The translations under genes were made by a program, and so were the position numbers. Source: Aquilaria yunnanensis (lineage: Eukaryota > Streptophyta > Magnoliopsida > Malvales > Thymelaeaceae). From it: DNA of 64,000 bases. The stretch is from the NCBI GenBank assembly GCA_039654915.1, contig CM077596.1, positions 51,520,501 through 51,584,500 of the forward strand. The letters are read 5' to 3'. Positions 9,922 through 54,748 of the stretch are shown here, piece after piece. Below the pieces are notes generated by a model. The model was given only the letters and a program-made list of their open reading frames with translations. It did not search any database and was not told the DNA's origin. Each line of letters starts with the position of its first letter. The stretch's first letter is position 1.

Positions 9922-9929
9922 TATAAATA
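9922..9929 (+). promoter_or_regulatory. TATA box of the 5' LTR
   Basis: TATAAATA is followed by a C-run, and the same site is kept in the 3' LTR at 30716-30723. Its place about 515 bp into the LTR would make U3 ~0.5 kb and leave a very long R-U5. The start site itself is inferred. Confidence 0.7.
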
Positions 9930-13399: not shown

Positions 13400-13418
13400 T
13401 GGCGACTCCACTGGGGAC
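13400..13418 (+). other. primer-binding site
   Basis: TGGCGACTCCACTGGGGAC lies 3 bp after the 5' LTR. It complements a tRNA 3' end of the form ...GGAGTCGCCA. tRNA-Arg is the primer reported for Ogre elements; I did not check a tRNA set. Confidence 0.8.
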
Positions 13419-15902: not shown

Positions 15903-18900
15903 ATGGCAGAACAAGCCGAAGGACGTCTCATGGAGATGGAGTCCAAGATTGAAAGTATGTCAGAACAGATGAAACAATTGATGGAATTAATCAAAGGGAA
16001 AGCAACTCAAGTCCCCATCAAAGAAGTACAAGATCCCACTTATCCCCCGGGATTTACCCCGCAACGAGTCTCAGTCCAAGAAAACCTGTTTCAAGAATCA
16101 GGACCCTCTGCTAGTGTTCACCTGAAACAAGACACCGTACATGAAGAGAAGAAGATGTTACCAAAAGAAGAAGCAGAATCTCAAAAACTCGAAACAATAG
16201 AAAAGAGACTGCGAGCCATTGAAGGAGGTACTATGTTCGGATCTCTCTCAGTGGATGATCTCTGCTTAGTGCCAGACGTTGAAATCCCTTCGGACTTTAA
16301 GGTGCCAGATTTCGTAAAATACGATGGAACGAGTGATCCCATCACTCACATCACTTTGTTTCTCAGAAGACTACAACCACTTACCAAAGATGAGAAGGTG
16401 TGGATCGCACTTTTTCAGGAAAGTCTCACAAAATCAGCATTACAGTGGTATCTAAGCCAAGGTCCAAGAAACATAAAAACTTGGAATGACCTTGCTCAGG
16501 CCTTCATCGGCAACTATAAACATGTTATGGACTTAGCTCCGGATCGCCAAACTCTCCAAAACATGGAGAAGAAAAAAACAGAAACTTTTAAGGAATACGC
16601 CCAACGATGGAGGGACTTAGCTGCACAAGTACAGCCACCCATGACAGAAAGAGAAATGGTCACTTTGTTTGTCCAGACACTGAAATACCCATATTATGAC
16701 AAACTTATTGGCAATGCGGCAACTAACTTCTCCGACGTAGTCATGTCTGGAGAAAGGATCGAGCATGGTATCAGGACCGGGAAGATTACTGAGTCCTTTA
16801 GTGATCCTATGAAAAGAGGAGGACCATCCAGAAGAAAAGATGAAGAAATACAACAAATCGGACGAGGAAGAGGGATTCCCCTCGTGGGTACCGTGGCTAC
16901 CGGACCTCGCCTATCCTATTCTGCCAACAGGCCCAATTATTATCCTACCAATAGGCCCAATGATTATCCTCCAAATAGGCCCAGTGATTATCTTCCCAAT
17001 AGACCCAACAATTATCCTATCAACAGGCCTAATCAGTTACGGCCACCTGTTCCGACTCCTCCAATGCCTGCACCAAGACCAAGAGAAATTTTCGCACCGA
17101 TTCCCATGACTTATACTGAGTTATATCCAAAACTCATCCAGAGCCAACTCATTCACCCAATTCCCACAAGGCCATTCGAACCCCCATATCCAACATGGTA
17201 TGACCCTAAACTAAATTGCCCATATCATGATGGTGCCGTGGGCCACGGACTCGAAAATTGCATAGCATTGAAGCGTATAGTCCAACAATTAATTGAGTCA
17301 AAGTGGTTGGACTTTTCCGATGAACCAAACGTCACTCATAATCCATTGCCTCCTCATCAAGCCAAACCAGTCAATATGATCGAAGAATACTGGCCGATGA
17401 AGAAAACAGTCAATGATATCATAACCCCTCTTAAGCATGTATATTCATGCCTTGTGAAAGAAGGGATTATCATAGGAAAGTCTTCTGGAAATAAAGAAGT
17501 CGAGCATGAGGAATGGTGCAACTTTCATAACAGTAAGAGTCATTCTATCCAAGAATGCCCAGAATTCCGTAAAAGTCTACAAAGTCTCATGGACTTCTCC
17601 CAAATCATCGTTTTTATGTCAGATAAAGAGGATGACGTGAATGTGATAATTAAAGAACAAGAAGTCAATATCATGCCAAGGCCACTAGTCATTCCAATCT
17701 CAAAATCTGCTCTCAAGCCTTTAAGAATTCAAGTTCCAAAGCCATTCCCGTACAAATCAGACAAAACTGTTCCATGGAACTATGGCTATACTTCTAACAT
17801 CACATCAACTCTGTTAGAAGTTGGGGGCATGACTAGAAGTGGTCGGTGTTATTCTCCCGAGCAAATGAACAAGCTCCAACAAGAGAAGAATGTTACGGAT
17901 CCAGCAAATGGACCTATTAACACATCTAAAGAGCAAGAGATGCCTCGAGCAGTAACAGATGAACAAGCTACTGAGTTTCTCAAACTTATAAAGCAAAGTG
18001 AATACAGCATCGTGGAGCAGTTGAACCGTCTGCCAGCAAAGATCTCCATACTTTCATTGCTCTTAAGTTCTGATGCCCATCGAGAAGCTCTTCTCAAAGT
18101 CCTGAATAAGGCTTATGTTGAACAAGATATCTCCGTGAACAACTTTGACCACCTTGTCAACAACATTACGGCACAAAATCTCATCACATTCACTGACGAT
18201 GAGATACCAGCAGAAGGAAGGGGTCACTCTAAGGCTCTACATATTTCGATTAAATACAAAGATCGGATTATGGCTAGAGTTCTGATCGACAATGGATCAG
18301 CTCTAAATGTAATGCCATTAGAAACTTTACATAAGATCGGTTTAGACCCATCACACCTCAACAACAGTCATATTGTTGTTCGAGCATTTGACGGAACAAA
18401 GAGAGACGTGGTTGGAGAAATAGAGCTACCAATTGGGATTGGTCCCTGTCTTTTCCATATCACATTCCAAGTCATGGACATTTCTCCATCTTATACTTGT
18501 CTACTGGGAAGACCATGGATCCATATGGCTGGAGCAATTCCTTCCTCATTACATCAAAAAATGAAATTCATCATTGAAGGAAAGATAATCACAGTCTTTG
18601 CTGAAGAAGACATTCTGCTATCTAGACCTGCGGATGCTCAATATGTTGAGGTCAATGAAAATATACCTGATTGCTCCTTCAGGTCTTTTGAGATTGTCAA
18701 TGCTGCTTATGTCAGTGAATATGAAGAAGAACCCGTTCCTAACATCTCTAAAACAAGTCGCATGGTCGCCAAACTCATGATAAAAGGAGGATACTCACCG
18801 GGGTTAGGTTTGGGACAAGATTTACAAGGAATCCCAGAGCCATTGAAAATATCCGCAAATGAAAGGAAATACGGCCTAGGCTTCACACCGACAAGACATG

Positions 18901-19214
18901 ATAAAATGAAGGCAATAGCTGAAAAAAGAGAAAAGAGGATTGCACGATTAACAGGGCATCCTCTCCAGGAAAGAAATCTGGATATCCCTGAAATCACTGA
19001 AACGTTCGTGAGTGGTGGTCTCATTCCGAAAAATGACAATGAAGGCAAGCTGACTATCAACATCAACAAGTCTTTTGAAAGTCTTTCTATTCAGGCAATC
19101 ATCAGCGATTCACCTGAAGAGGAGGAGCTCATTCAACCTTGTGGCCCACGGGATGTGCTGAACAATTGGGAGGCGATAGAACTGCCTGTTATAATTGAAA
19201 GCTTTCCAAAGTAA
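15903..19214 (+). CDS. gag-protease ORF with C-terminal G-patch (first coding exon of gag-pol)
   Basis: The 1103-codon frame starts 187 bp after ORF1. An N-terminal coiled coil precedes a gag domain at residues ~125-300 (YDGTSDPITH, WNDLAQAFIGNY, FKEYAQRWRDLAAQVQPPM). At ~340-380 there are five imperfect NRPNxYP repeats. Two Cys/His clusters follow (CPYHDGAVGHGLENC near 440 and CNFHNSKSHSIQEC near 540), probably divergent nucleocapsid knuckles. A retropepsin lies near 793 (VLIDNGSALNVMP, with DNG in place of the common DTG/DSG). At ~950-1020 there is a G-patch (GGYSPGLGLGQDLQGI...YGLGF). The frame ends at TAA 19212-19214. That stop overlaps a splice donor at 19211, so spliced RNA would read on into the RT exon. 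Unspliced RNA would give Gag-Pro alone. Confidence 0.93.
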   Translation: MAEQAEGRLMEMESKIESMSEQMKQLMELIKGKATQVPIKEVQDPTYPPGFTPQRVSVQENLFQESGPSASVHLKQDTVHEEKKMLPKEEAESQKLETIEKRLRAIEGGTMFGSLSVDDLCLVPDVEIPSDFKVPDFVKYDGTSDPITHITLFLRRLQPLTKDEKVWIALFQESLTKSALQWYLSQGPRNIKTWNDLAQAFIGNYKHVMDLAPDRQTLQNMEKKKTETFKEYAQRWRDLAAQVQPPMTEREMVTLFVQTLKYPYYDKLIGNAATNFSDVVMSGERIEHGIRTGKITESFSDPMKRGGPSRRKDEEIQQIGRGRGIPLVGTVATGPRLSYSANRPNYYPTNRPNDYPPNRPSDYLPNRPNNYPINRPNQLRPPVPTPPMPAPRPREIFAPIPMTYTELYPKLIQSQLIHPIPTRPFEPPYPTWYDPKLNCPYHDGAVGHGLENCIALKRIVQQLIESKWLDFSDEPNVTHNPLPPHQAKPVNMIEEYWPMKKTVNDIITPLKHVYSCLVKEGIIIGKSSGNKEVEHEEWCNFHNSKSHSIQECPEFRKSLQSLMDFSQIIVFMSDKEDDVNVIIKEQEVNIMPRPLVIPISKSALKPLRIQVPKPFPYKSDKTVPWNYGYTSNITSTLLEVGGMTRSGRCYSPEQMNKLQQEKNVTDPANGPINTSKEQEMPRAVTDEQATEFLKLIKQSEYSIVEQLNRLPAKISILSLLLSSDAHREALLKVLNKAYVEQDISVNNFDHLVNNITAQNLITFTDDEIPAEGRGHSKALHISIKYKDRIMARVLIDNGSALNVMPLETLHKIGLDPSHLNNSHIVVRAFDGTKRDVVGEIELPIGIGPCLFHITFQVMDISPSYTCLLGRPWIHMAGAIPSSLHQKMKFIIEGKIITVFAEEDILLSRPADAQYVEVNENIPDCSFRSFEIVNAAYVSEYEEEPVPNISKTSRMVAKLMIKGGYSPGLGLGQDLQGIPEPLKISANERKYGLGFTPTRHDKMKAIAEKREKRIARLTGHPLQERNLDIPEITETFVSGGLIPKNDNEGKLTININKSFESLSIQAIISDSPEEEELIQPCGPRDVLNNWEAIELPVIIESFPK

Positions 19215-19412: not shown

Positions 19413-22400
19413 ACCCAAAACTCTCTTTGATGACAATGAAAGAATGAACTTTGATAATCCTGTAAACACTACCGACTCGGATGACGAAGATCTTCAAGTA
19501 TCTCCTGAGCTATTAAAAATGATTGAGCGAGATGAAAAAGAAAGAGCAACAAGTCAAGAACCAACTGAGGTATTCAACCTGGGAGACAGTCAGGATGTAA
19601 AAGAAGTCAAGATTGGCACTTTATTCCCTCCTGAAGAAAAAGAAGAATTAGTCCATTTATTGAAAGAATATGTGGATGTATTTGCTTGGTCATACCAAGA
19701 TATGCCTGGCTTAAGCTCAGACATAGTACTACACAAAATACCTTTGAAGCCTGGGGCGAAGCCTGTCAGACAGAAGTTACGAAGATTAAAGCCGGAGTTA
19801 ATCTTAAGAGTAAAAGACGAGATTCGAAAGCTGTGGGATGCAGGATTTCTTGGGGTCGCTGAATATACAGAATGGGTGGTTAACATTGTCCCAGTCGAAA
19901 AGAAAGAAAGTGGGAAACTAAGAGTTTGTCAGGACTACCGGCCTTTGAACGAAGCCAGTCCTAAAGATAACTTCCCACTTCCTCATATTGATACACTGGT
20001 GGATAATACCGCAGGAAACTCCTACTTTTCCTTCATGGATGGTTTTTCTGGATACAATCAAATCAAACTTGATCCAGATGACATGATAAAAACTGCTTTT
20101 ATTACCCTTTGGGGTACCTTCTACTATAAGGTGATGCCTTTCGGGTTAAAGAATGCTGGTGCTACATATCAAAGAGCCATGGTCACGTTGTTCCATGACA
20201 TGATGCATAAAGAAATTGAAGTATATGTGGACGACATGATCGCCAAAACTTTCACTGCTGGGGGGCATCTAAAAGTGCTAAGAAAACTATTCGATAGACT
20301 TCGCAAATATCAATTGAAGTTGAATCCTGCCAAATGTACTTTTGGAGCCTCTTCAGGAAAGTTATTGGGTTTCATGGTCAGCAAGGACGGGATTCGAGTA
20401 GACCCGAGTAAAGTCAAAGCGATACAAGAAATGCAACCCCCGAAGACTCCAAAACAAGTAAGAAGTTTTCTGGGTAGAATCAACTTCATAGCAAGGTTCA
20501 TATCACAATTGACGTCCAAGTGTGAACCGCTTTTCAAATCACTAAAGAAGAACAATCCGATTGAGTGGAATAACGAATGCCAAGAAGCGTTCGAGAAAAT
20601 CAAACGATATCTATCAAATCCACCAGTCTTGATACCACCTCGGTCCGGAGAACCGTTGATTCTATATTTATCCATACAGGATTCTTCATTAGGATCCGTA
20701 TTGGGTCAACGTGATGAGACAAGCAAGAAGGAGCATGCAATTTACTATTTGAGCAAAAAGCTTACCACATATGAAGCTAAATACTCAATAGTAGAAAAGT
20801 CCTGTTGTGCCCTTGCATGGGTAGCACATCGACTACGACACTACATGCTCAACAACACAACATTGCTGATCTCCAAGACTGATCCCATTAAGTACATTTT
20901 TGAGAAACCCGCTTTATCAGGCAGGATTGCAAAATGGCAAATGCTGTTATCTGAATACGACATACAGTATGTCACCCAAAAGGCCGTAAAAGGAAGTGTG
21001 ATCGCTGAATATCTGGCTGATAGAGCATTGGAGGATTATGAGCCCATGAGAATGGATTTTCCTGATGGAGATATAATGACAATAAAACAGGAAGTCGATG
21101 AAGAAAATGAAACATGGAAAATGGCATTTGATGGAGCATCTAATGCTTTGGGACAAGGGATCGGAGCTATACTCATCTCTCCAAGCGGAGAGCAGTTTCC
21201 CCTCACAGCAAAAATTACATTTCCTTGTACCAACAATATAGTAGAGTATGAAGCATGTGCTATGGGACTCCAAATGGCATTGGATTTGAAAGTGCGAGAT
21301 CTCCGAGTCTATGGGGATTCCGCATTAGTCATATATCAAATCAATGGAGAATGGGAGACAAGAGATTCAAAATTAATCCCTTACCAAAAGCTTATACTAG
21401 ACATGACTCGAAGATTTAACAGTATAAGTTTCCATCATCTTCCAAGGGAAGATAATCAAATCCCAGACGCTTTAGCTACTTTGGCTGCTATGTACAAGAT
21501 AAGCGACCCTGAGCATACTCCTGTGTTCGAGATGAAAATAATAGATTCTCCAGCTTATTGCATGAGCATCGAAGAAGAATTGGATGGAAAGCCTTGGTAT
21601 CATGATATCAAGAAATACCTCCAAGAACGAACATATCCACTAGAAGCATCAGAAAATGACAAGAAATTTCTACGAAGATTGTCAATGGGTTTTCTTTTAA
21701 ACCTAGACATACTCTACAAGAAAACCCCAGACTCGATGCTACTTCGCTGTGTAGATACTCATGAAGCACGAAAGATCATGGAAGAAGTTCATTCTGGAAT
21801 ATGTGGAGCACACACTAGTGGTCATACCATGGCAAGACAAATAATGAGGGCTGGCTACTATTGGCTCACATTGGAAAGTGATTGTATTAATCACGTGAGA
21901 AAATGTCACAAATGTCAAATATATGCCAACAAGATCCAAGCTCCACCCACCCCTCTTAATGTAACAGCAATACCTTGGCCTTTTGCCATGTGGGGAATTG
22001 ACGTCATTGGAGCCATTACCCCTAAAGCTTCCAATGGTCACAAATTCATCCTAGTGGCAATTGACTACTTCACTAAATGGGTAGAAGCTATGTCATATGC
22101 AAGTGTGACTCAAAAGGTGGTATGCCGGTTCATTAAGAAAGAAATCATTTGTCGTTATGGGCCGCCGGAATGTATCATCTCAGACAATGCCACGAACCTG
22201 AACAATGCAATGATGCAGACTTTGTGCCGGCAGTTCAAAATCAAACATCTCAATTCGGCACCTTATCGACCAATGATGAATGGTGCAGTAGAAGCGGCCA
22301 ATAAAAATATCAAGAGAATTGTTGAAAAGATGATCGTCACTTACAAGGACTGGCATGAGATGTTACCTTTTGCACTACATGCTTATAGAACTTCTACCCG

Positions 22401-22842
22401 TACTTCTACTGGAGCAACACCTTTTTCTCTGGTATACGGTATGGAGGCTGTATTGCCCATCGAAGTTGAAATTCCTTCATTAAGGGTACTAATGGATACT
22501 CAATTAAGAGAAGCAGAATGGGTCAAAGCTAGATACGAGCAATTAAATCTAATTGATGAAAGAAGAATGATAGCCCTCTGCCATGGGCAACTTTATCAAA
22601 GAAGGATGATTCGTTCTTACAACAAAAAGGTTCGCCCACGACAATTTCACGAGGGTGACATAGTGCTCAAGAAAATTTTACCCATGCAACATGATTCAAG
22701 AGGAAAATGGACACCAAATTATGACGGGCCATATGTCGTGAAGAAAGCATTTTCAGGAGGGGCACTAATTCTGACAGAAATGGATGGACGAGAATTACCG
22801 AAGCCAGTAAATTCGGATGCAGTAAAGAAATACTTTGCATAA
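19413..22842 (+). CDS. RT-RNase H-second RNase H-integrase ORF (second exon of gag-pol)
   Basis: Numbering is from the internal Met at 19444, but translation probably enters by splicing at 19413. The RT domain covers about 90-340 (CQDYRPLNEASPKDNFPLP, FMDGFSGYNQI, MPFGLKNAGATYQ) with the YVDD active site at about 261. The RT-linked RNase H lies at ~400-520. A second, archaeal-type RNase H lies at ~555-685, with D in FDGAS, E in VEYEA, D in GDSA and D in PDALATL all present. Integrase follows: an HHCC zinc site (GICGAHTSGH...CHKCQ) at ~780-830 and the DDE triad at GIDVIG, ISDNAT and GAVEAANK. The C-terminus contains a plant-gypsy GPYVV...LPKPVNSDAVKKYF end. The dual RNase H is a hallmark of the Tat lineage. 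All catalytic residues I can place are kept, so the element may be active. Confidence 0.95.
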
Positions 22843-24206
22843 TGAAGAAATTTTCAAACAGAAGGGGAGAAGTGGATACAGGGTTACCAAAGTTTATTTG
22901 ATCAAAGTTGTCAAAGAGAGCTTTCTTCTCTTACACTTTCATTATCTATCTGTACCCAAGATTTTCATATTACCCATAAATAAAAAGCCAATTCTCTTTA
23001 GCTTGCCTTTGATTCTCACGTTCAAAATGCTAAAGTCGCTTCTATCCAGTTCTTTTCCTTCAAATCTCACATTCCTACTAGCCTTAAGTGTGCAATAAAT
23101 TGTGACTTTTGAAGGAAGAATAGTAATAATTAAAACTTAAAAAAAAAACAAAAAAAAAACAAAAAAAAAAAAACAAAGACCGTAGATTACTTTGATAAGC
23201 TTTATGAATTAAAACAGATAAGATTAAGGTCCTGCTTTGCGAGCGGCACAGAACACTGGCTAACAAAGAAGAAGGAGTAACAAATCTTTGGGATATAGCC
23301 TTGGTGGTGGCCTGAATGATCGCTTCAAAAGTCTTAACATGTCCATGTCAGCAAGAAAGAATCATACTCACGAATATCTCAACAGGGACAATTATCCAGA
23401 GAGGCATAAAGTACGAGGCGGACATTAAGGAAATTGAAGCCAAAATTTAAGAACAAATCAAGGAAAGAAGATTTTTGAAAAGAGTTAGGCTTTTGAGACA
23501 ATGGACAATAGCTGGAAAGCGAGACAATGAACAACAGCTGGAAAGCGAAACAATGGACAACAGTTGGAAAGCATAAAGAGATTCAACGATAGAAGGCAAT
23601 TACAAAGAGGATCCAGTAAAGCAAAGATATAAAAAAATAAATCCATCAGTTACACATGCTCTGCATTCATGCATTTCACATCATGCATGCATGGCATACA
23701 GAACAAGGATCAAATGGGAAGCGTATCCACCGCACAGTCACAGCAGTATAAGCTGACGTCTCAGTGACATCCGTTTTTACCAATCTACCGCTGGATGCAT
23801 AGCTGATATAGTGGACCCAGCCCCATCAGCAATTCAAGGATAAAGTAGACAATATTGTCAAAATCCTGGTAATCAATTCAATAATCGAGGCTACACCGGG
23901 ATGGACAGAATTGACGTTAGCTTAGCGGTATCCAAGATAAGAAATAGCTATGGTCAAAGATAAGCGCGGATATTGAGAAATATTGTCGTCGGAAGCAGAC
24001 AATGGATTCAATAATCAAGGACTGGATTAATGTCATGCCTGATGAGATATCAAGGATAAGAAATATCTATGATACTAAAATAAAGTAGGATCCACTTTTC
24101 CGGTTAAACGGCGGATACGGTACTCCGTGACTCTCAAGTCGGTTCTCTCAGTTGCCCATAATAACTGATTCATTCACCCCTTCTTTCTTTTACTTCCTCC
24201 TAGAAA
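22843..24206 (+). other. non-coding region between integrase and the cargo genes
   Basis: No convincing ORF. It contains an A-rich low-complexity tract (about 23138-23176). Three direct repeats of ~29 bp (about 23495-23575) share the core ACAATGGACAA(T/C)AGCTGGAAAGC. Partly repeated segments at ~23870-23960 and ~23975-24090 share AATTCAATAATC and GATAAGAAATA. The last ~100 bp before 24207 resembles the leader of the second cargo gene (near 24955-25044), so the duplicated cargo unit begins around 24100. I see no clear TATA box for the first cargo gene. Confidence 0.6.
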
Positions 24207-24755
24207 ATGGATCCTACTTTTTCCGCCTTGCGAAAGTATTTCCCTTCTCTCCCAATGAACATCCTAAAAAAGATCTACCGAGTTCGCTGTGAACGATTAA
24301 GAGCTCTGATGCACAAAGGAATACCTGAAGATGTACGGTGGTTAATCGAAGCCAAGGTTCGTCTGGCAGGTGAAATCCCAGAGACATTTGCATCTTACAT
24401 GCCTGGTGTTGGCAAAAGTTCTTATGCCAGAAAAAGAAGAGCGAAAAGATTACAAGTCTGCCATAAATGTGGTAGGTGGACTTGTAAAACTAGGTGTCAT
24501 TCTTTAGGAATGATCTCCAATAATCGAGAAGATAAAATACGGTTCATCAAGAATGGCTTGAGTAAGGACTCATTGGATGATATCCAATTGACTCTTGAGA
24601 CGCATTCTTGTGGATCTGTGCAACGTGAAATTCTTGATTTATGGAGTATTTTTCATGAAGAACGAGACCGTTACAGTCCCGGGAATCTGACTTTAAACGA
24701 CCCTGTTTGCCGGTTTGTAAGAAAGCTGGATGGGAAGCAGATCCTCGACTCATAG
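24207..24755 (+). CDS. cargo gene A: basic, cysteine-rich protein resembling viral nucleic-acid-binding proteins
   Basis: This is an intact 182-residue ORF, the first of three tandem paralogues. Residues 1-60 look helical (LRKYFPSLPMNILKKIYRVR). At 72-81 there is a strongly basic run (SYARKRRAKR). Next to it is a Cys4 cluster, C85-x2-C88-x4-C93-x3-C97, then EDKIRFIKNGL and a conserved C-terminus (LTLNDPVCRFVRKLD). A basic run beside a short Cys cluster, followed by an F-I-x-x-G segment, recalls the small cysteine-rich nucleic-acid-binding proteins of carlavirus-like plant viruses. Some of those act as silencing suppressors or transcription activators. That similarity is from pattern only and needs a profile search. 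The likely role is nucleic-acid binding in the nucleus. The start is shared with copy B. Confidence 0.8.
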   Translation: MDPTFSALRKYFPSLPMNILKKIYRVRCERLRALMHKGIPEDVRWLIEAKVRLAGEIPETFASYMPGVGKSSYARKRRAKRLQVCHKCGRWTCKTRCHSLGMISNNREDKIRFIKNGLSKDSLDDIQLTLETHSCGSVQREILDLWSIFHEERDRYSPGNLTLNDPVCRFVRKLDGKQILDS

Positions 24756-24917
24756 AAGCCGTTAATGCCGTTACTGGACGTAAAACCAGTGGAAGATGTG
24801 AGCCACAGTCACAATTACTGTACATACAGTTTGTTATATTTGAAAAAATTTGCATTTTCTTTTGACAGATGTACATGCTCCTCTAAGTGTAATCGACACG
24901 TTATCCCTTTTCATCAC

Positions 24918-24924
24918 TATAAAT
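24918..24924 (+). promoter_or_regulatory. TATA box of cargo gene B
   Basis: TATAAAT within CATCACTATAAAT lies 127 bp before the ATG of copy B. The same context, TATCCCTTT(T)CATCACTATAAAT, precedes copy C, so the promoter was duplicated with the gene. Confidence 0.7.
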
Positions 24925-25044
24925 GCGTGTTCTTCCTTCTGATTAAACAACAGATAAGATACCCCGTGACTTCTAAAGTCGGTTATTCCAGTTTCCTGCA
25001 ATAACTTATTCATTTCCCTCTTCTCTCAAATTCTTCTCTCATCA

Positions 25045-25593
25045 ATGGATTCTACTCTTTCTGTACTGCGAAAATACTTTCCTTCCCTCCCACTAAAAGT
25101 CCTTAAAAAGATCTACCTTGCTAGATGTGAAAGAATCAGAGTTTTTACACGCAAAGGCATTCCCGATAATGTGCAGTGGATAATTGAAGCTAAGGTCCGT
25201 TTGGCGGGTGAAGTTCCAGATGCATTTATGCCCCGCATGCCAGGTTTAGGTAAAAGCCGTTATGCCAAAAGGCGAAGAGCAAAGAGACTAGGCGTGTGTT
25301 ATAAATGTGGGCGATGGAATTGTAATACTAAATGTCGCTCTTTAGGATACATCTCCATAAATCGTGAAGATAAAAGAAAATTCATTAAGAATGGCCTGCG
25401 TAAGGAGTCTCTGGAAGATATCCGAGAGACTCTTGAAACGCATTCTTGTGGAAAAGTGCAAGGTGAAATTATCGGTTTATGGAGGACTTACCATAAAGAA
25501 CGAAACCGTTACAGTCTTGGCAATGTGATTTTAAACGACCCTGTTTGTCAGTTTGTAAGAAAACTAGATGGGAAGCAAATCCCCGACTTATAG
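25045..25593 (+). CDS. cargo gene B: second paralogue of the basic Cys4 protein
   Basis: An intact 182-residue ORF that aligns with copy A without gaps. The four cysteines sit at the same positions (85, 88, 93, 97), with the basic run RYAKRRRAKR before them and a conserved second Cys in ETHSCG (~135). By eye roughly two thirds of residues match copy A, and differences are spread along the protein while the cysteines, basic run and LNDPVC motif stay. This pattern suggests selection on the protein after duplication. The gene unit includes the promoter and a 3' flank that also resembles the flanks of A and C (TAGAAG(C/G)(C/A)...TTACTGGAC). Confidence 0.8.
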   Translation: MDSTLSVLRKYFPSLPLKVLKKIYLARCERIRVFTRKGIPDNVQWIIEAKVRLAGEVPDAFMPRMPGLGKSRYAKRRRAKRLGVCYKCGRWNCNTKCRSLGYISINREDKRKFIKNGLRKESLEDIRETLETHSCGKVQGEIIGLWRTYHKERNRYSLGNVILNDPVCQFVRKLDGKQIPDL

Positions 25594-25743
25594 AAGGCAT
25601 TGAAGCCATTACTGGACATGAATCAGTAGAAGATGAGAGTCACGGTCATGATTCCTGTACATATAAGCTGTCATTTGTCTTTTCTTTTGACAATAATGTG
25701 CTTGCTTCTGTAAGTGTAATTAACGCATTATCCCTTTCATCAC

Positions 25744-25750
25744 TATAAAT
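25744..25750 (+). promoter_or_regulatory. TATA box of cargo gene C
   Basis: TATAAAT in the same CATCACTATAAAT context as copy B lies 77 bp before the ATG at 25821. Confidence 0.7.
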
Positions 25751-25820
25751 ATGTGTTAGTTATTTCCGTTTCCTACAATCACTAATTTCCTTCTTTTTCT
25801 CTTAAATGCCTCCTTCATCA

Positions 25821-26369
25821 ATGGAGCCTTCCCTTTCTGCTCTACGAAAATATTTCCCTTCTTTCCCAATAAATGTTCTTAAAAAGGTTTATCAAGCTAG
25901 ATGTGAACGATTCCGACTATTTATGCACAAAGGCATTCCTGATAATGTGCGGTGGCTAATTGAAGCTAAGGTTCGTTCAGCTGGTGAAGTTCCAGAAGCG
26001 TTCTTTCCCCGTATGCCTGGCTTTGGTAAAAGCGCTTATGCCAAAAAAAAAAGAGCAAAGAGGCTAGGCGTTTGTCATAATTGTGGATGGTGGATTTGCG
26101 GCAATAAATGTCGTTCTCCAGGAGTGATCACCAGAAATCGTAATGATAGAATAAAATTCATCAAGAATGGCTTGCGTAAGGAATCTCTGGAAGATATCCG
26201 AGAGGTTCTTGAAGCGCATTCTTGCGGAATAGTGCAATTTGAGGTTGTTGGATTATGGATAATTCTCCAAAAAGAACGAGAACGTTACAGTCTTGGGAAT
26301 CTGACCCTAAACGACCCTGTTTGCCAGTTTGTGAAAAAGCTAGATGAGATGCAAATCACTGATTCATAG
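25821..26369 (+). CDS. cargo gene C: third paralogue of the basic Cys4 protein
   Basis: An intact 182-residue ORF from the ATG at 25821. An in-frame ATG 15 bp upstream (25806) would add five residues. I prefer 25821 because it aligns with the starts of A and B and keeps the shared TCATCAATGGA context. The basic run is AYAKKKRAKR, and the Cys4 cluster (C85, C88, C93, C97) and LNDPVC motif are kept. It is closer to B than to A by eye (for example RKESLEDIRE). Like the others it has no signal peptide or membrane segment. Confidence 0.8.
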   Translation: MEPSLSALRKYFPSFPINVLKKVYQARCERFRLFMHKGIPDNVRWLIEAKVRSAGEVPEAFFPRMPGFGKSAYAKKKRAKRLGVCHNCGWWICGNKCRSPGVITRNRNDRIKFIKNGLRKESLEDIREVLEAHSCGIVQFEVVGLWIILQKERERYSLGNLTLNDPVCQFVKKLDEMQITDS

Positions 26370-26427
26370 AAAGCATTGAAGCCGTTACTGGACGCAAAGC
26401 CAGTAGAAGACGGAACAAGGTCACGAT

Positions 26428-26885
26428 TACTGTACGTGCTAGCTGTCGCTTTTGAAATTTTCCTCCCCCTTTGGTAATAATGTATCCACTCCTGACATGA
26501 ACCAAAGTCACGATTACTGTACGTGCTAGCTGTCGCTTTTGAAATTTTCCTCCTCTTTCAGCAATAATGTATCCACTCTTGACATAAGCCATAGTCACGA
26601 TACTGTACATGCTAGCTGACGCTTTTGAAATTTTCCTCCCATAATGTACCCACTCCTGACATGAGCTATAATTATGACTACTGTATATACCTGCCACTTT
26701 TGAAATTTTCCTTCTCATCCGACAATCATGTACCTACTCCTGACATAAGCTACAGTCGCGACTACTGTACATGCTAGCAGCTATTTTGAAAATTTTCCTC
26801 CTCTTTTAACGATAGTGTACCCATACCTGACCAGAGTCATACCCGTGACTACTATGAATAGCTGGCAATAATGTATCCATTCTTG
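26428..26885 (+). repeat. five to six degenerate ~85 bp tandem repeats upstream of LOG
   Basis: Units share the order GTCACGATTACTGTAC, GTGCTAGCTG, CTTTTGAAATTTTCCTCC, then AATAATGTATCCACTC(C/T)TGACAT. The first unit follows the 3' flank of cargo gene C, so this array seems to have grown from the same intergenic sequence that separates the cargo genes. It leads directly into the LOG core promoter. Confidence 0.8.
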
Positions 26886-26918
26886 AAAAATAAAATTATT
26901 GCCTTATCTCTTCATCTC

Positions 26919-26926
26919 TATAAATA
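26919..26926 (+). promoter_or_regulatory. TATA box of the LOG gene
   Basis: TATAAATA lies 40 bp before the ATG at 26959, in the context TTATCTCTTCATCTCTATAAATA. This is similar to the TTATCCCTTT...CATCACTATAAAT promoters of cargo B and C. The closeness to the ATG implies a very short leader. Confidence 0.7.
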
Positions 26927-26958
26927 TATCCTCTTTTCTCACAAGGGAAAGGATAGGA

Positions 26959-27588
26959 ATGGAGAAAACCCCAACTCGTAAATCCCGAAGTATTTGTGTA
27001 TTTTCTGGGGCTTTTCCTGGAAAAGATGAAGAGTATTTAAAAGCAGCCAACCATTTGGGTAGAGTATTAGCTGAGCGAAAAATACATTTAGTTTATGGAG
27101 GAGGTAGTGTCGGATTAATGGGAGGTGTAGCATCAGCAGCATCTCTAGGAGGAAGTCAAGTTCTGGGCATTATCCCTGAACCTCTGAAATTTATTTCTGG
27201 GGGCACGATTGGAGAAGAATTAGTGGTTAAAAATTTACAAGAGCGTGTGTTACAAATGCTTTTAAATGCTGATGCTTTTATCGCTCTACCAGGTGGTTTT
27301 GGCACATTGGGAGAAGTCTTTCAAATTGCTTCCATGGCCCAACTTAATTTGCATAAGAAACCCATTGGGCTTTTAAATGTTAACAATTTCTTTACAGGTC
27401 TGATAGCTTTTATGGATTATGCTATGCAGAAGAATTTCATATCAAGAGTAGCACGGCGAATCATAATATCCGCAACAACTGCTGAAGAATTGCTAGATAA
27501 AATACAAGCTTTTGTTCCTGAACCAGATCCAACAATGATTCAGATAGACTGGACACGACAGTCTTTCCCGACCAGTTCATTCCCATAA
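26959..27588 (+). CDS. LOG-like: LOG-like cytokinin riboside 5'-monophosphate phosphoribohydrolase carried by the retrotransposon
   Basis: An intact 209-residue ORF of the LOG family. These enzymes hydrolyse cytokinin nucleoside 5'-monophosphates to the active free base plus ribose 5-phosphate in one step, usually in the cytosol and nucleus. Seen here: SICVFSGAFPGKD, the nucleotide-binding stretch YGGGSVGLMGG at 46-56, R96 in the expected position, and the catalytic signature PGGFGTLGE at 111-119 with its glutamate. The GLLNV...FISRVARRIIISA region is also typical. Length matches the family (~210-220). The frame has no intron, whereas plant host LOG genes have several, which suggests capture from mRNA. 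Residues have drifted (SGAFPGK for the usual CGS-type start), so capture is not very recent, yet the frame and active site are kept. I reject an in-frame ATG at 26899 because the TATA box would lie inside the coding region. Confidence 0.93.
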   Translation: MEKTPTRKSRSICVFSGAFPGKDEEYLKAANHLGRVLAERKIHLVYGGGSVGLMGGVASAASLGGSQVLGIIPEPLKFISGGTIGEELVVKNLQERVLQMLLNADAFIALPGGFGTLGEVFQIASMAQLNLHKKPIGLLNVNNFFTGLIAFMDYAMQKNFISRVARRIIISATTAEELLDKIQAFVPEPDPTMIQIDWTRQSFPTSSFP

Positions 27589-28139
27589 TGGTCCTCTACT
27601 CACCCTGTTGAAGTATTGTGGAAGAAGAAGTGATCCGATCCGTTTTGCTTGTCCTTTAGTTTTATTATCAGCATTTTCTTTCGTGTTTTAGTTTTTCTTT
27701 CAAGGAATTTCTTTTTTTTTTATCTTATAAGATAGTTTCGTCCATGCTGATATTAAAACCATAGGACAATGCCTTTAGGTTGGAATGGCTGAGTAAAGAG
27801 TAATTTTTATTGCTCTTGAGACGCATCCTATTAGGTCTACTAGGCATAACATTTTAGGATAGTTAAGCTTCAACCTTATTTGGATGACATATCTCTCAAG
27901 CGAATCTATATTTACTAAAGAAAATATTAGATGAACCTTGGATATTGATTCCAAACATCCGTTCCCTTTACATAATTTGTTAGCAATATTGTTATCATCA
28001 AGATTCACTCATTTTATCGAAGTCTAAAATTTCGCACTCGCCTATTATGCAAATTCACACTTTCGAAGAAAATTATTCCAATTCTAATTGCTTTCATATA
28101 AATTTCGCTCGAGGTTCAAGGAGATTTCCTTAACCTCAT
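27589..28139 (+). other. non-coding region after LOG
   Basis: A T-rich stretch at about 27660-27730 may serve the LOG 3' end. I see no ORF of interest. Confidence 0.5.
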
Positions 28140-30070
28140 TCCATCAATTTTCCTTCAAACGATAGGAGAGTTCCTATCGTCGAGGTTCTCAGGTAAGGCC
28201 CTTAATCTCAAAATCATCAATTTTCATTCAAACGATAGGAGAGTTCCTATCGTCGAGGTTCTAAGGTAGGACCCTTCACCTCATTCAAACAATTTTCCTT
28301 CAAACGATAGGAGAGTTCCTATCGTCGAGGTTCTAAGGTAGGACCCTTAACCTCAAAATCATCAATTTTCCTTCAAACGATAGGAGAGTTCCTATCGTCG
28401 AGGTTCTAAGGTAGGACCCTTAACCTCAAAACAATCAATTTTACTTCAAACGATAGGAGAGTTCCTATCGTCGAGGTTCTAAGGTAGGACCCTTAACCCC
28501 ATTCAAACAATTTTCCTTCAAACGATAGAAGAGTTCCTATCGTCGAGGTTCTAAGGTAGGACCCTTAACCTCAAAACAACAATTTTCCTTCAAACGATAG
28601 AAGAGTTCCTATCGTCGAGGTTCTAAGGTAGGACCCTTAACCTCAAAACAATCAATTTTCCTTCAAACGATAGGAGAGTTCCTATCGTTGAGGTTCTAAG
28701 GTAGGACCCTTAACCTCAAAATCATCAATTTTCCTTCAAACGATAGGAGAGTTCCTATCGTCGAGGTTCTAAGGTAGGACCCTTAACCTCAAAACAATCA
28801 ATTTTCCTTCAAACGATAGGAGAGTTCCTATCGTCGAGGTTCTAAGGTAGGACCCTTAACCTCAAAATCATCAATTTTCCTTCAAACGATAGGAGAGTTT
28901 CTATCGTCGAGGTTCTAAGGTAGGACCCTTAACCTCAAAACAATCAATTTTACTTCAAACGATAGGAGAGTTCCTATCGTCGAGGTTCTAAGGTAGGACC
29001 CTTAACCTCATTCAAACAATTTTACTTCAAACGATAGGAGAGTTCCTATCGTCAAGGTTCTAAGGTAAGACCCTTAACCTCATTCAAACAATTTTCCTTC
29101 AAACGATAGGAGAGTTCCTATCGTCGAGGTTCTAAGGTAGGACCCTTAACCTCAAAATCATCAATTTTCCTTCAAACGATAGGAGAGTTCCTATCGTCGA
29201 GGTTCTAAGGTAGGACCCTTAACCTCAAAATCATCAATTTTCCTTCAAACGATAGAAGAGTTCCTATCGTCGAGGTTCTAAAGTAGGACCCTTAACCTCA
29301 AAACAATCAATTTTACTTCAAACGATAGGAGAGTTCCTATCGTCGAGGTTCTAAGGTAGGACCCTTAACCTCATTCAAACAATTTTCCTTCAAACGATAG
29401 GAGAGTTCCTATCGTCGAGGTTCTAAGGTAGGACCCTTAACCTCAAAACAATCAATTTTACTTCAAACGATAAGAGAGTTCCTATCGTCGAGGTTCTAAG
29501 GTAGGACCCTTAACCTCATTCAAACAATTTTCCTTCAAACGATAGGAGAGTTCCTATCGTCGAGGTTCTAAGGTAGGACCTTTAACCTCAAAATCATCAA
29601 TTTTCCTTCAAACGATAGGAGAGTTCCTATCGTCGAGGTTCTAAGGTAGGACCCTTAACCTCAAAATCATCAATTTTCCTTCAAACGATAGAAGAGTTCC
29701 TATCGTCGAGGTTCTAAGGTAGGACCCTTAACCTCAAAACAATCAATTTTACTTCAAACGATAGGAGAGTTCCTATCGTCGAGGTTCTAAGGTAGGACCC
29801 TTAACCTCATTCAAACAATTTTCCTTCAAACGATAGAAGAGTTCCTATCGTCGAGGTTCTAAGGTAGGACCCTTAACCTCAAAACAATCAATTTTCCTTC
29901 AAACGATAGGAGAGTTCCTATTGTCGAGGTTCTAAGGTAGGACCCTTAACCTCAAAACAACAATTTTCCTTCAAACGATAGGAGAGTTCCTATCGTCGAG
30001 GTTCTAAGGTAGGACCCTTAACCTCAAAATCATCAAATTTTCCCTTCAACGATAGAAGAGTTCTTATCGC
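28140..30070 (+). repeat. ~27-copy, ~73 bp minisatellite with a hairpin in every unit
   Basis: Units contain TTCAAACGATAGGAGAGTTC, CTATCGTCGAGGTTCTAAGG, TAGGACCCTTAACCTCA, then AAATCATCAATTTTCC or variants. Each carries the perfect inverted repeat CGATAGGA-GAGT-TCCTATCG (8 bp stem, 4 nt loop); a few have one mismatch (CGATAGAA). Variants AAATCATC, AAACAATC and ATTCAAAC in the linker recur in a patterned way, which suggests multi-unit (higher-order) amplification. Tandem repeats just before the 3' LTR are known in Tat/Ogre elements and can seed satellite DNA. Confidence 0.95.
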
Positions 30071-30192
30071 AGAGGCTCTAAAAAAATTTTCCTTAACCAC
30101 ATAGTTTAGGCGGCGAGAAGGTTCTCAATGGCTAGCTAAGACGGATGAAATTTGGTAACTACTTTGCATACATCATGTCCCATGAAGCATGC

Positions 30193-30205
30193 AAAGGGGG
30201 GCAGC
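30193..30205 (+). other. polypurine tract of the Tat/Ogre element
   Basis: AAAGGGGGGCAGC directly precedes the 3' LTR start (TGTTAACACCC). It is the expected plus-strand primer site. Confidence 0.9.
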
Positions 30206-33200
30206 TGTTAACACCCAATTTCGTCCGGCCTTTTTTTAAAAAAAAAAAATTTAAAAAAAAAACTAATTAAAAAAATTATTATTATTATTATTATTGCTAA
30301 AAGATTTTAATTATGTTAATTAGTTTAAAATATATTTTTATTTTGAGAAGATTTGATTTAAAATAATATATGTGCGAATATGTATGTGTTTGGAATAAAA
30401 ATAAAATTTCAGAAAAAAATGACAAAAAAATTAAAAGTTTGAGGTAAAAATGACAAAATTGAGAAGTTTCGGACAAAATTGACAAATTCTGAAAGTTTCA
30501 GGAGCTTTGGGTAATTTTTCGCGTCAATTTTGGGCCTAAACGGACGTTTCTAGCCCAAATTGACAGAAAACGTTAAAATTGTCAAAATCAGAAGCTTCTG
30601 AGCTTATCCAGAGCTGGTGTAACGTAAAGGACTGAAACTGTCATTTTACCAATTTAAAAGATAAGTTTGATATTTTTTATTAATTTATCCGTCCACAGTT
30701 CAGCTAAGCTCCTTCTATAAATACCCCCCCAAATTGAGTGCTGAACATATAGAAAATCAGAGAAAAAAGTTCCGAGCTCTGTTTTAAAAAAAGAGAAAAT
30801 AGAAGCTTTAGTCCTAGCCTCTCCTCCCTCTGCCAAAACAGTCCCAAAATTATTTTTTCTTACGTTTCGACTACCTTCTTCCTCCGTTTTCTCTTTCTTT
30901 CTTTTTCTGTCGCCGTCCTATCCCGCTGCCGTCGCCCTGCCGCCGCCGTCTAGCCGTCGCCATCGCTCTTACGCCGTCGCCGTCGCCGTCGCAGCCGTCG
31001 TTGCCGTTCCGCCGCCACGCCCAGCAGTCCTGCCGTCTCGCGCCGCCGCACCCAGCCGTCCTGCCGCCGTCGCCCCGCTCCCTCGCCGCCGTCGTCCCGG
31101 CCGCCGTTGCCCTCGCCGCCGTCGCCCCGCGCTCTTGTCGCCGTCGCCGGCCGCCCTGCGCCCCGCCGCCTCCGCCTGCCCAGCCCCGTCACCCCCCTCC
31201 TCCCTCGCGTCGTCTCTGATTCTTTCTCCAGATTCAATTTTAATTTTTAAGGGTAAAACCTCCTTTCAGTCCTTCATCTTTTCAATTTCTTTCTATTAGG
31301 TCACTAACCTTTTTATTTTGTCTTTGCAGAAAATTAATTAACTAACTCATTTATTTTTTTACTTGTTTATTTATTTGTTTATTATTGTTATTATTACTAA
31401 CCTTTTTTTTTTGTTATTAGCAACTAACAACTAACTTGCTAATTTTTACTAACCTTTATTATTATTGTTGTTAATAATTAATTAAACTTGGCTAACTTTT
31501 ATTATTGTTGTTAATTAATTAACTTAATTAAACTTGGCTAACTTTTATTTATTGTTGTTAATTAATTAACTTAATTAAACTTGGCTAACTTTTATTATTG
31601 TTGTTAATTAATTAACTTAATTAAACTTGGCTAACTTTTATTATTGTTGTTAATTAATTAACTTAATTAAACTTGGCTAACTTTTATTTATTGTTGTTAA
31701 TTCATTAACTTAATTAAACTTGGCTAACTTTTATTATTGTTGTTAATTAATTAACTTAATTAAACTTGGCTAACTTTTATTTATTGTTGTTAATTAATTA
31801 ACTTAATTAAACTTGGCTAACTTTTATTTATTGTTGTTAATTAATTAACTTAATTAATTTGGCTAACTTTTATTATTTTTGACTTAATTAACTTTCATTA
31901 TTATTGTTAATAATTAATTTAATTAAATTTTGATAACATTTATTATTTTTTTTTTCAAGTGGATGGCCAAAATGCCCCACTTTATTAATTTTTCTTTATA
32001 TAATTTAATTTATTTAATTCACCTTTTACCCATAAATAAAAAAACTAAAAGAAGATTCTTTTGTAATTAATTATTAAGGCTAATAAAAATTTAAAAGCCA
32101 ATTATTTTTATTTTGGAATACATTTTTTATTATTTCTTTAAAGATAACAAAGTGAACTTTTTGTTAAAATTAATAAACAAACATGATTAAATCAATTCTT
32201 TTTAAATATTTTTTTAATAATGATACTTAAAATAAAAATTCAAGAAAAATCCAATTAAAATTAATAACTAATTAAATAATTAAAATTTAACAAAAATTAA
32301 AAAATCCATGACCAAATGATCCGCCAGGATCCATGGCTTGGAAATATTTTTAAATAAAGTATATAAATAAACTTTTCTTTATTAAAAATAAAATTTTGGG
32401 ACTAATATATTAATTATTTATTAAAATAATAAAATAATTTTATTTTAGTTTTCTTTATTAATAAAAAGAATAAAAAGAATAAAAATTTTGGGTTAATATT
32501 TTATTCAGTAATATTTTATTTATTCCTTTTAAAAAATATAACTTTTTGTTTCCTTTATAAAAATTTTAGTCAAATAATTTCAAAAAAAAAAAAAATAAAT
32601 AACAAAAAAAAATTGAATTTTCTCTTAAATATTTTAGACTTATTAATTAGATATTTTCAGAGATATAAATTAAAAAAAAAAAATCTTTCATTAAACAAAA
32701 AGAAAACAAAAAAAATATAAATATCAAAACTTTTGTTTTAAAATACATATAAATTTTTGGTTAAATAATCTTTTATTCCAAAAAAAATTAAATAAATATC
32801 AAAACTTTTCTTCTTTTGTTTAAAATATACATATAAATTTTTAATTTTCTTAATTAAACAATTACTTTTGGTTAATCTTTTATAAAAAAAAATTTAGTTC
32901 ATGGTATATTGGCTGGAAACTGTCTCGTGCCCGCTTTTGAGCTGCTTCACCTGGTGAAAAGGGTCTGGCTGAGTAACAACGCCCCGTACCATGATCAAAA
33001 TTTTTATTTTTAAACTCTTTAATTCTTTTAAATTAACTTCTTATTAAATAAAAATTAATTATTTTTTTTAATTCTTTTATAAATTGAGTAATCCTTTAAA
33101 ATAATAAATATCTTTCATTAAACGAGAAAACAAAGAAAGATAAGAAAGAAAAAAAAGAAAGATAAGAAAGAAAAATAAAAGAAAGATAAGAAAGAAAAGA

Positions 33201-34028
33201 AAGATAGAAAAAAATAAAAGAAAAGATAAGAAAAAGAAAAGAAAGAAAGAAAAGACAAGAAAAATAAAAGAAAGATAAGAAAGAAAAATAAAAGAAAGAT
33301 AAGATAAAGAAAAGAAAGGAAAGATAAGAAAAAGAAAAGAAAGATAAAAGAAAGAAAAAGAAAAAGAAAAGAAAAAAGAAAGAAAAGAAAAGAAATTAAA
33401 AAGAAATTAAAAAAAAAAAAGTAAAAATAAGTAAAAAAAGAAGAAAAAGAAAGAAAGTAAAAAAAGAAGTAAAAATATAAAGATAAATTTTTTAGTTAGT
33501 ATTAAAAATCATTCATAAACAAAAAGAATTACCATTTAAAAATTAATTTCATAATAATAAGAATTAAATAATTACGATAAATCAATTTCCATATCCGGAT
33601 GATCCGGCAGGATCTACGGTTTGGAAAATATCAAACTTTTTAAAATAAATAAATTAAATAAAAAGATAAAAATCCATATTTTTTTACAATATGGATAAAA
33701 TTGTTTAAAATTTCACCAAATTCCGTGTCCAAATGACTCGGCAGAGTCCATGGTTCGGAAGTATCAAATTTTGTATAAATTAATTTAAAAATCCGCATCC
33801 GATTAATTCAGTTAAAATTTCTAGTTTGAAAATTAACTGAATATTTTCTAAAAGCAAAGCAAAACAAAATTAAAATCAACTAAGGTGCCAATTTTGGGCG
33901 CTATAACAAAGTTGTTTTAGCGTAACCGTACTCCCGATCCCCGAACTCTCGCAGACCAATTTTAAGGTGTCCAATCGACCTAGGTGAAACAGATTGGTGG
34001 CGACTCCCGAAAACCCGACGTTGCCACA
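30206..34028 (+). repeat. 3' LTR of the Tat/Ogre element (3823 bp)
   Basis: This copy is nearly identical to 9408-13396, with the same TATA box, GC-rich tract, AT-rich repeats, GA-rich microsatellite and GTTGCCACA end. Substitutions are sparse by eye; most differences are repeat-unit number and short indels in homopolymers. The TSD GACAG follows at 34029-34033. Confidence 0.95.
30716..30723 (+). promoter_or_regulatory. TATA box of the 3' LTR
   Basis: TATAAATA matches the site in the 5' LTR. It could drive read-through into the flanking copia relic. Confidence 0.6.
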
Positions 34029-34034
34029 GACAGT

Positions 34035-54493: not shown

Positions 54494-54748
54494 TTTTTCA
54501 GTGATCGCGAGGTAGAAGATGAGAGGCTCTCCCTCCTAAGGTTGCCGAAGTGTTGGCAGGTGAGTCAGGTAGCTTTTAAGCTCTTCCTAAGCTTTCTGGC
54601 ATTCTGTGTTCCATGGATGCTCCTGGGTCCTAGGGGTGTCGTCGCCCTTGGGGACTTTAGTGAGTACTTTAAAAAATGGACGACATCGGTCGCCGTACCT
54701 GGAGATGAATCTGCTAAGGGAGGTGATTCTTCCGGTAAGCCTTTGTAT

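Follow-up and report, generated by a model that had tools for sequence, protein, structure and literature searches.

LOGL4-like open reading frames (ORFs) were reportedly found by Steinbauerova et al. in 2011 in two Athila-like elements. LOG in plant LTR elements is also on record in the available part of PMC9289625, which cites Steinbauerova 2011. As far as the available text of PMC6317226 goes, Tat elements carry a second RNase H (aRH) in pol, and Ogre elements encode gag-pro and pol in two ORFs with a mean gap of 274 bp and have a PMD-type ORF1 in 57% of cases. On the viral side, silencing- and/or transcription-related functions are described for the CRPs of carlaviruses and mandariviruses (PMC3689765, PMC12172455, PMC8839810, each in its available part), and the same sources give the spacing of the viral NABP finger as C-X2-C-X9-C-X4-C or C-X2-C-X12-C-X4-C (PMC3689765, PMC8839810). 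CVB p12 is presented as a transcription factor that induces hyperplasia; one study reports no suppression of locally induced silencing by it, another weak suppressor activity (PMC3689765, PMC12172455, available parts). Literature listings on carlavirus-type proteins together with retrotransposons or plant genomes, mainly of openly accessible papers, point to no NABP in an LTR element; the available part of PMC3136472 names Carlavirus once, in another context. LOG as cargo of LTR elements is known, and NABP cargo was not found in print.

The window analyzed here, a stretch of 64,000 nucleotides from Aquilaria yunnanensis that is free of Ns, contains a young, intact LTR retrotransposon of the Ogre/Tat type. 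Its parts are as follows, the PBS and PPT being read from the sequence itself.

9403..9407, no strand: left TSD of the element, GACAG
9408..13396, + strand: 5' LTR, 3989 nt, TG...CA ends
13400..13418, + strand: putative PBS, TGGCGACTCC...
14021..15715, + strand: ORF1, DUF7745 / plant mobile domain-like (Pfam PF24924, E 9.7e-56)
15903..19214, + strand: gag-protease with G-patch (Pfam PF03732 and PF01585, with a weak match to protease at E 0.013)
19444..22842, + strand: pol with RT, RNase H, second RNase H (aRH, RVT_3) and integrase (Pfam)
30190..30205, + strand: putative PPT, a G-rich tract directly 5' of the 3' LTR
30206..34028, + strand: 3' LTR, 3823 nt, TG...CA ends
34029..34033, no strand: right TSD of the element, GACAG

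The two LTRs differ by ~0.6% (K2P 0.0058 over 3802 aligned sites, MAFFT). The Tat/Ogre assignment made in an earlier note on this DNA stands: RVT_3, the second RNase H that marks Tat, is found at pol 570-680 (E 5.5e-20), and gag-pro and pol are two ORFs ~230 bp apart, as in Ogre. ORF1 scores 34.1 bits against PMD, whose cut-off is 34.9, and DUF7745 matches much the same stretch well above its own cut-off. The gag-pro ORF shows, by eye, C/H-rich stretches of its own.

Between the integrase and the 3' LTR lie four further intact ORFs, all on the + strand, in each of which the terminal stop is the sole stop.

24207..24755, + strand: cargo A, NABP-like, 182 aa (PF01623 E 1.3e-6, PF05515 E 5.4e-6)
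25045..25593, + strand: cargo B, NABP-like, 182 aa (PF05515 E 5.8e-8, PF01623 E 2.1e-5)
25806..26369, + strand: cargo C, NABP-like, 187 aa, or 182 from the ATG at 25821 (PF05515 E 1.8e-5)
26959..27588, + strand: LOG (cytokinin riboside 5'-monophosphate phosphoribohydrolase-like), 209 aa (PF03641 E 7.3e-31; PDB 2a33 E 3.8e-52)

The earlier note had placed this block inside the element, at the position of a retroviral env, and both claims hold: A, B, C and LOG are enclosed by the GACAG TSDs and the TG...CA LTRs, precede the PPT, and follow pol on the sense strand. Pfam recognizes no env family among them, the matches being to NABP and LOG families, and there is no ORF of at least 80 aa wholly within 23099-24206. 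With a probability of roughly 0.55, we read the cargo as accessory genes for the element's own life cycle, in which NABPs that target silencing or transcription and a cytokinin-raising LOG would keep the host cell permissive. Selection at the level of the element would maintain the block, comparable to retroviral accessory genes.

The description of A, B and C as three paralogues of a virus-like Cys4 protein is borne out. They are mutually 66-71% identical, and all three pass the cut-off of Viral_NABP (PF05515); that of Carla_C4 (PF01623), 20.9 bits, is passed by two of the three, A with 28.7 and B with 24.8, C lying narrowly under it with 20.3. The start of C may be at 25821, matching that of its paralogues. 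A basic NLS-like patch stands directly N-terminal to the Cys4 motif in all three, and a simple pattern for the two together is matched by 91/120 NABP relatives among the matches listed. The finger is spaced C-x2-C-x4-C-x3-C in A, B and C, as in 105 of the 120 relatives among the matches listed, and does not have the viral spacing C-X2-C-X9/12-C-X4-C, so the function of these NABPs may differ from that of their viral homologues. By sequence, no NABP relative of solved structure was convincing (two matches, E 0.93 and 0.95), and the structure prediction, with a mean pLDDT of 52.0 for 20 sequences and 66.5 for 86, is too weak to rely on.

Purifying selection has acted on the NABP paralogues since before the insertion. 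Their omega values are 0.247, 0.248 and 0.317, and in none of 1000 bootstraps does omega reach 1; their dS is 0.54-0.86, against an LTR divergence of 0.0058; constraint of this kind at such a dS is far older than the insertion. A profile search returned 422 NABP relatives, and scans of viral contigs gave no relative; among 86 aligned members, 79 match Viral_NABP and 72 match Carla_C4 at E ≤ 1e-3. In the tree, the partner of A is P0002 (96/87) and that of C is P0001 (100/99), two different foreign sequences, so these paralogues predate this copy; P0071 is the nearest row to B by path only and forms no pair with it.

A second locus, L001, consists of plant-like DNA within a bacterial MAG. In it, an NABP immediately follows an integrase that is distant and apparently of the Athila-like type. 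Its NABP compared with A gives an omega of 0.158. The similarity extends beyond the coding sequence into two flanks of A.

24096..24206, + strand: leader of A, homologous to the L001 leader
24753..24841, + strand: stop codon of A and conserved 3' flank, with 83% identity to L001, or 87% over the first 62 nt

No LOG was found in L001. Since its NABP follows another integrase with a homologous leader and 3' flank, an NABP cassette was likely exchanged between element lineages. That the block is an assembly mis-join, or an unrelated gene cluster nested by insertion, is highly improbable because the NABP also stands behind integrase in L001; the element is, moreover, continuous between its TSDs and LTRs in a window without Ns. 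The earlier note had named such a mis-join and two further findings as speaking against the cargo block. One of these two, cargo confined to a single copy, is contradicted by relatives outside the host genome; the other, neutral cargo, is contradicted for the NABPs by the omega of the paralogues and of L001 versus A. LTR elements are known to transduce genes (PMC7264820, available part) and the LOG of the window is divergent, as would suit captured passenger genes of no benefit to the element; this is nevertheless improbable, and for the NABPs it is disfavored by purifying selection, by the 422 relatives and by the recurrence behind another integrase.

The conserved noncoding flanks could be RNA targets, which would suit NABPs that serve as structural or replication helpers, that is, a second nucleocapsid or an RNA chaperone that packages or protects the element RNA, with LOG as a moonlighting passenger. 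The basic patch with its Cys4 knuckle fits such a role, as does the gag-pro ORF, in which Pfam gives no zf-CCHC match at E ≤ 1. However, a conserved RNA fold in the NABP flanks is no better than in shuffles (z -1.77 to 0.43, seven stretches). A hairpin 3' of the NABP stop has 96.4% of its cells paired, versus at most 67.9% when slid, but it contains one covarying pair, and 122/500 shuffles perform equally well, so the structure is not established. The C/H-rich stretches of gag-pro also weigh against helper NABPs, and both LOG and the triplication of the NABP would be left unexplained; we consider this explanation rather unlikely.

Each cargo ORF is preceded by a candidate expression signal, splice-acceptor-like for A and TATA-type for B, C and LOG, and two tandem arrays flank the LOG gene.

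24183..24203, + strand: splice-acceptor-like site rich in pyrimidines, its end 3 nt upstream of A's ATG
24911..24924, + strand: TATA-type box TCATCACTATAAAT before B
25737..25750, + strand: TATA-type box TCATCACTATAAAT before C
26416..26831, + strand: tandem array of an 87-bp unit in 4.9 copies, 5' of LOG, with partial similarity to the 3' flank of A
26912..26925, + strand: TATA-type box TCATCTCTATAAAT before LOG
28128..30081, + strand: 73-bp tandem repeat array between LOG and the 3' LTR

By a crude pyrimidine count, no other site in the internal region is as strong as that at 24183..24203. In the same region, CTATAAAT is confined to positions upstream of B, C and LOG. A 35-column stretch around the LOG box resembles that before C. 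Two observations count against the main reading: a longer 24-nt TATA module, with three mismatches allowed, is matched before B only, and the LOG leader after its box would be just ~10 nt. An origin of the promoter in the LTR or in the spacer between pol and A was rejected, the similarity not exceeding that of shuffles.

If the cargo is accessory, A would be made from spliced genomic RNA, in the manner of env, and B, C and LOG would be transcribed from internal TATA promoters. The NABPs may enter the nucleus via the basic patch, bind nucleic acid via the Cys4 knuckle, and weaken RNA silencing and/or change transcription, as is described for carlavirus and mandarivirus CRPs. LOG would locally increase active cytokinin, and the two together would hold the host cell in a permissive, proliferating state, allowing new copies to reach dividing, germline-forming cells. 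We infer host manipulation or counter-silencing because the viral homologues have published functions of that kind.

The fourth ORF had been called a LOG, and the PF03641 domain (scanned from the listed start, a TTG at 26899; the first ATG is at 26959) and an intact PGGxGTxxE confirm it; the motif is kept by 111/120 LOG relatives among the matches listed. The RK pair that precedes it in solved LOGs is absent from the window LOG, which keeps the R and has V for K; of the 120 relatives among the matches listed, 107 show M, I or L after the R, 4 have RK and 9 have neither. The window LOG may be degenerating: it shares a long branch (0.57) with P0121, has G at the first E of GTLEE, as does P0121, where the other 18 alignment rows have E, and is without a C-terminal LxLxL tail. 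A bacterial origin was rejected, as all 136 plasmid records match at <60% identity and the tree groups the clade with Arabidopsis LOGs and not with two bacterial LOGs (100/97).

LxLxL occurs in the last 14 residues of 101/120 LOG relatives among the matches listed, often after a KKRK-like basic run. The tail would be an EAR motif, and Arabidopsis LOGs are not known to carry it. Together with the hyperplasia-inducing transcription factor CVB p12 (PMC3689765, PMC12172455, available parts), the tail raises the possibility that the cargo mainly reprograms nuclear transcription, with the NABP as a transcription factor and a nuclear LOG that recruits a corepressor through LxLxL. We judge this unlikely: the window LOG itself does not have the tail, and few LOG relatives have a known genomic context.

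Outside the window, NABP is tied to LOG indirectly. Among 85 NABP and 49 LOG relatives, five candidate co-located pairs share source and sequence size, versus a null mean of 0.64 (2/5000 as high as five); gene model P0094 has both domains, and Populus is named among the relatives of both. Returning to accessory cargo, a wider version of that reading is tentative, at somewhat under even odds: a mobile cassette homologous to silencing-suppressor/NABP proteins of positive-strand RNA viruses, often with a specialized LOG, may have moved among retrotransposons of Athila-like and Ogre-like type across the eudicots as a counter-defense and host-reprogramming module. Each gene would have its own signal, a splice acceptor for the first NABP and internal TATA promoters for the others, and the LOG branch would have gained a nuclear corepressor-docking tail that was lost again in the window element.

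If true, RNA viruses of plants and LTR retrotransposons would have shared in gene traffic, and plant retroelements would have an accessory gene set comparable to that of retroviruses. Counter-defense by a plant retrotransposon, and with it a reason for the extra ORFs of Ogre- and Athila-type elements, is testable now by a standard silencing-suppression assay.

Among described systems, and within the available parts of the sources, Ogre (PMC6317226) shares with the window element the aRH, the two-ORF gag-pro/pol layout, a 5-bp TSD, a long internal region and perhaps a PMD-type ORF1, whereas the window element adds four sense ORFs between pol and the 3' LTR. Retand with TRP28 ORFs (PMC11963269) likewise has a long region from pol to the 3' LTR, extra ORFs and, in about half of Retand, tandem repeats, but its ORFs are antisense and TRP28 is, by name, another domain. 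The orchid Gypsy with a 2-ODD (RNA demethylase) ORF (PMC9289625) is also a giant plant Gypsy that has kept an extra gene of a type found in flexiviruses; the protein and the hosts are different. Consensus Gypsy elements from Citrus and Populus (PMC9289625) similarly carry a LOG/YgdH domain, without the NABP that the window element has. Finally, the NABPs (CRPs) of carlaviruses, allexiviruses and mandariviruses have the same basic patch abutting a Cys4 knuckle, with PF01623/PF05515 matches over cut-off, whereas those of the window are triplicated proteins of 182 aa, with another Cys spacing, encoded in an integrated retroelement.

The four-gene cargo that the earlier note had placed inside an LTR retrotransposon is real: the element is bounded by LTRs and a target-site duplication, and Pfam recognizes three NABPs (A, B and C) and one LOG. 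The features of the window are as follows.

9408-34028: one full-length LTR element, flanked by the 5-bp duplication GACAG
24207-24755, 25045-25593 and 25806-26369 (+): NABP genes A, B and C
24753-24841, 25591-25660 and 26367-26440: conserved stretches right 3' of the A, B and C stop codons
26416-26831: 87-bp tandem array, upstream of LOG
26959-27588 (+): LOG, first ATG at 26959 (PF03641, E 7.3e-31, scanned from an upstream TTG)
515-4238: fragmented CC-NBS-LRR resistance-type gene lying some 5 kb to the left of the LTR element, with Rx_N and NB-ARC at 515-1537 and R13L1/DRL21 LRRs at 2430-4235
52799-57318 (-): second Tat-like element remnant, with gag and a pol carrying RVT_3 and integrase
59652-62729 (-): Copia-type element remnant
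7377-8099 (-): further RVT_2 fragment

The LTRs of the element measure 3989 and 3823 nt. MAFFT gives 22 substitutions over 3802 aligned sites (208 gap columns; K2P 0.0058) and BLAST 39 mismatches over a main piece of 3330 columns; because the two programs treat a low-complexity stretch differently, the divergence is placed at about 0.6-1.2%. At rates of 1.3e-8 and 7e-9, the K2P value corresponds to an age of 0.2-0.4 million years. Pfam orders the ORFs as ORF1 (DUF7745/plant-mobile-domain-like), gag-pro with a G-patch, and pol with RT, RNase H, a second RNase H and integrase, gag-pro and pol being two ORFs about 230 bp apart. As far as PMC6317226 is available, a second RNase H, a two-ORF gag-pro/pol layout and a PMD-type ORF1 are Tat/Ogre features. 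The element has the first two, and its ORF1 is a candidate for the third, with a PMD score slightly below the Pfam cut-off.

A and B have 182 residues, as does C, or 187 counted from its first ATG. All three pass the Viral_NABP cut-off (E 5.4e-6, 5.8e-8 and 1.8e-5); the Carla_C4 cut-off of 20.9 bits is exceeded by A (28.7) and B (24.8) and narrowly missed by C (20.3). With B as query, 146 of 200 candidates were relatives, with Carla_C4 precomputed in each of the best 120; plant sources named among these matches (best 120 of 146) are Xanthoceras, Acer, Rhamnella and Orobanche. Searching with a profile built from 86 sequences retrieved 422 relatives among 2795 candidates and added Populus (best 120 of 422), one cluster representing 566 sequences; these counts describe sequences in the databases searched, not copy number in the host genome. 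At E<=1e-3, 79 of the 86 aligned members match Viral_NABP and 72 match Carla_C4.

In a tree of 37 NABP rows, A, B, C and the relatives P0002, P0001 and P0071 form one clade (100/98). P0002 is the partner of A (96/87) and P0001 that of C (100/99); the split between at least two of the paralogues therefore predates this element copy. The row nearest to B is P0071, yet the tree attaches P0071 to the C pair, with weak support (88/43). The three paralogue pairs have NG86 dS of 0.76, 0.86 and 0.54 and omega of 0.247, 0.248 and 0.317, with bootstrap limits between 0.15 and 0.49 and omega >=1 in 0/1000 bootstraps for each pair. Since dS exceeds LTR divergence roughly 50-150-fold, the paralogues have been under purifying constraint over many rounds of copying.

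A second NABP locus, L001, was the one relative among 111 pattern matches in a single scan of bacterial and archaeal genome contigs. This 3330-bp contig is filed under a Candidatus Nomurabacteria MAG, where it is probably contamination, because its content (L001:1-3330) is a plant-type retroelement. An integrase with H2C2 and core domains is followed by an NABP in the env position (Viral_NABP E 3.3e-8, over the cut-off; Carla_C4 19.8 bits, under it; against A, dN 0.184, dS 1.165, omega 0.158). The C-terminus of this integrase is, by its signature, presumably Athila-like. By eye, an NABP is fused to apparently Athila-type protease and integrase sequence in two gene models, P0082 from Rhamnella and P0114 from Orobanche minor. 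The L001 integrase ORF yielded no second RNase H; this is no more than suggestive, because the contig begins, by eye, within the region of RNase H and, in the available part of PMC6317226, Tat branches differ in where aRH lies. L001 1665-2435 and window 24096-24841 share 74% identity, which starts and stops outside the gene. The integrases share just 32-43% in tblastx pieces versus 70% between the NABPs of A and L001; exchange of the NABP between element lineages therefore fits better than common descent. LOG was not found in the 3330 bp of L001, and is thus absent there or lies outside the contig.

The conserved post-stop stretch recurs at L001:2345-2430. Counted from the stop codon, the first 62 aligned positions are 87% identical between A and L001, though the two genes differ at 59% of synonymous sites; B and C reach 72% against L001 over this stretch. 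In frame past the UAG, all four NABPs have a similar peptide with PLLD. Changes at codon positions 1, 2 and 3 number 3, 13 and 25 (six pairs summed, 27 to 63 nt each), a pattern that may point to readthrough or to an extension since lost. A and L001 compared by themselves have 1, 5 and 3, without a third-position excess. RNA folds of these stretches were not significant. The stretch may serve UAG readthrough or be a regulatory element.

Candidate expression signals precede all four genes. The + strand of the internal region has three copies of CTATAAAT, one each before B, C and LOG and none before A (6 on + and 2 on - in the whole window). With <=1 mismatch, TCATCWCTATAAAT has three matches against 0.09 expected, a number reached in 0/100 shuffles; a 24-nt version, 3 mismatches allowed, matches before B only. 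The boxes of B and C are not independent, because these genes are paralogues. The LOG upstream stretch scores 38 against that of C (shuffle maximum 27) and 27 against that of B (maximum 31; 1/500 shuffles as high). Ranked by a crude pyrimidine count, the top acceptor-like site within the internal region has its last base at 24203, three nucleotides 5' of the A ATG, and is one of seven of that strength in the window, both strands together. In L001, a weaker site precedes the NABP and ends at 1661. The 3' flank of A is similar to part of the 87-bp array (score 38, 0/500 shuffles as high).

The closest solved relative of LOG is Arabidopsis At2g37210 (E 3.8e-52), and its PGGxGTxxE motif is complete. 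Of 8000 candidates scored, 7829 passed; motifs were counted in the best 120 and hold for these nearest relatives only. PGGxGTxxE is kept in 111; the RK position of solved LOGs reads R plus M, I or L in 107, RK in four and neither in nine; and LxLxL, a form of the EAR repression motif, lies within the last 14 residues in 101, often behind a basic run. In a 41-row tree whose only plant references are two Arabidopsis LOGs, the window LOG and 36 picked relatives form one clade (100/92) separate from both references. Within it, the window LOG is paired with P0121; neither has the LxLxL tail, and the stem common to the two is long (0.57), which argues against the window LOG being fully functional. 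In the Xanthoceras gene models P0122, P0123 and P0176, the LOG domain is repeated, whole or partly, with the cellular-type RK motif.

Co-occurrence of NABP and LOG outside the window is indicated indirectly. Gene model P0094 (Rhamnella) contains both domains. Among 85 NABP and 49 LOG relatives on contigs >=1200 nt, paired by longest-contig size and source label alone (one label being assigned where there were several), five pairs agree: 8723, 4511, 2425, 2128 and 1386. A jittered-size null gave a mean of 0.64 pairs, with 2/5000 trials as high; the 1386 pair may be chance. Both families are named in Populus among the matches listed (NABP best 120 of 422; LOG best 120 of 7829) and also in Xanthoceras; the LOGs listed for Xanthoceras, however, carry the RK motif of cellular LOGs.

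By homology with viral CRPs, the element NABPs might weaken silencing or reprogramme the nucleus, and LOG would activate cytokinin, together favouring dividing cells. The available portions of PMC3689765, PMC12172455 and PMC8839810 attribute silencing suppression and increased pathogenicity to carlavirus CRPs, describe CVB p12 as a transcription factor that induces hyperplasia and suppresses silencing weakly or not at all, and report that NLS and finger motifs of mandarivirus CRPs matter for symptoms. The finger spacing of viral CRPs differs from that of the element NABPs, so direct carry-over of viral function is doubtful. A literature search, mostly of records without full texts, found no report of an NABP in an LTR element. 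Steinbauerova 2011 is reportedly in line with LOG domains in plant Gypsy elements. LOG (YgdH) domains occur in Citrus Gypsy consensuses and, once a filter is lifted, in Populus (PMC9289625, in part). Compared with other elements bearing extra ORFs, the present one is unusual in its cargo, whose role we infer.
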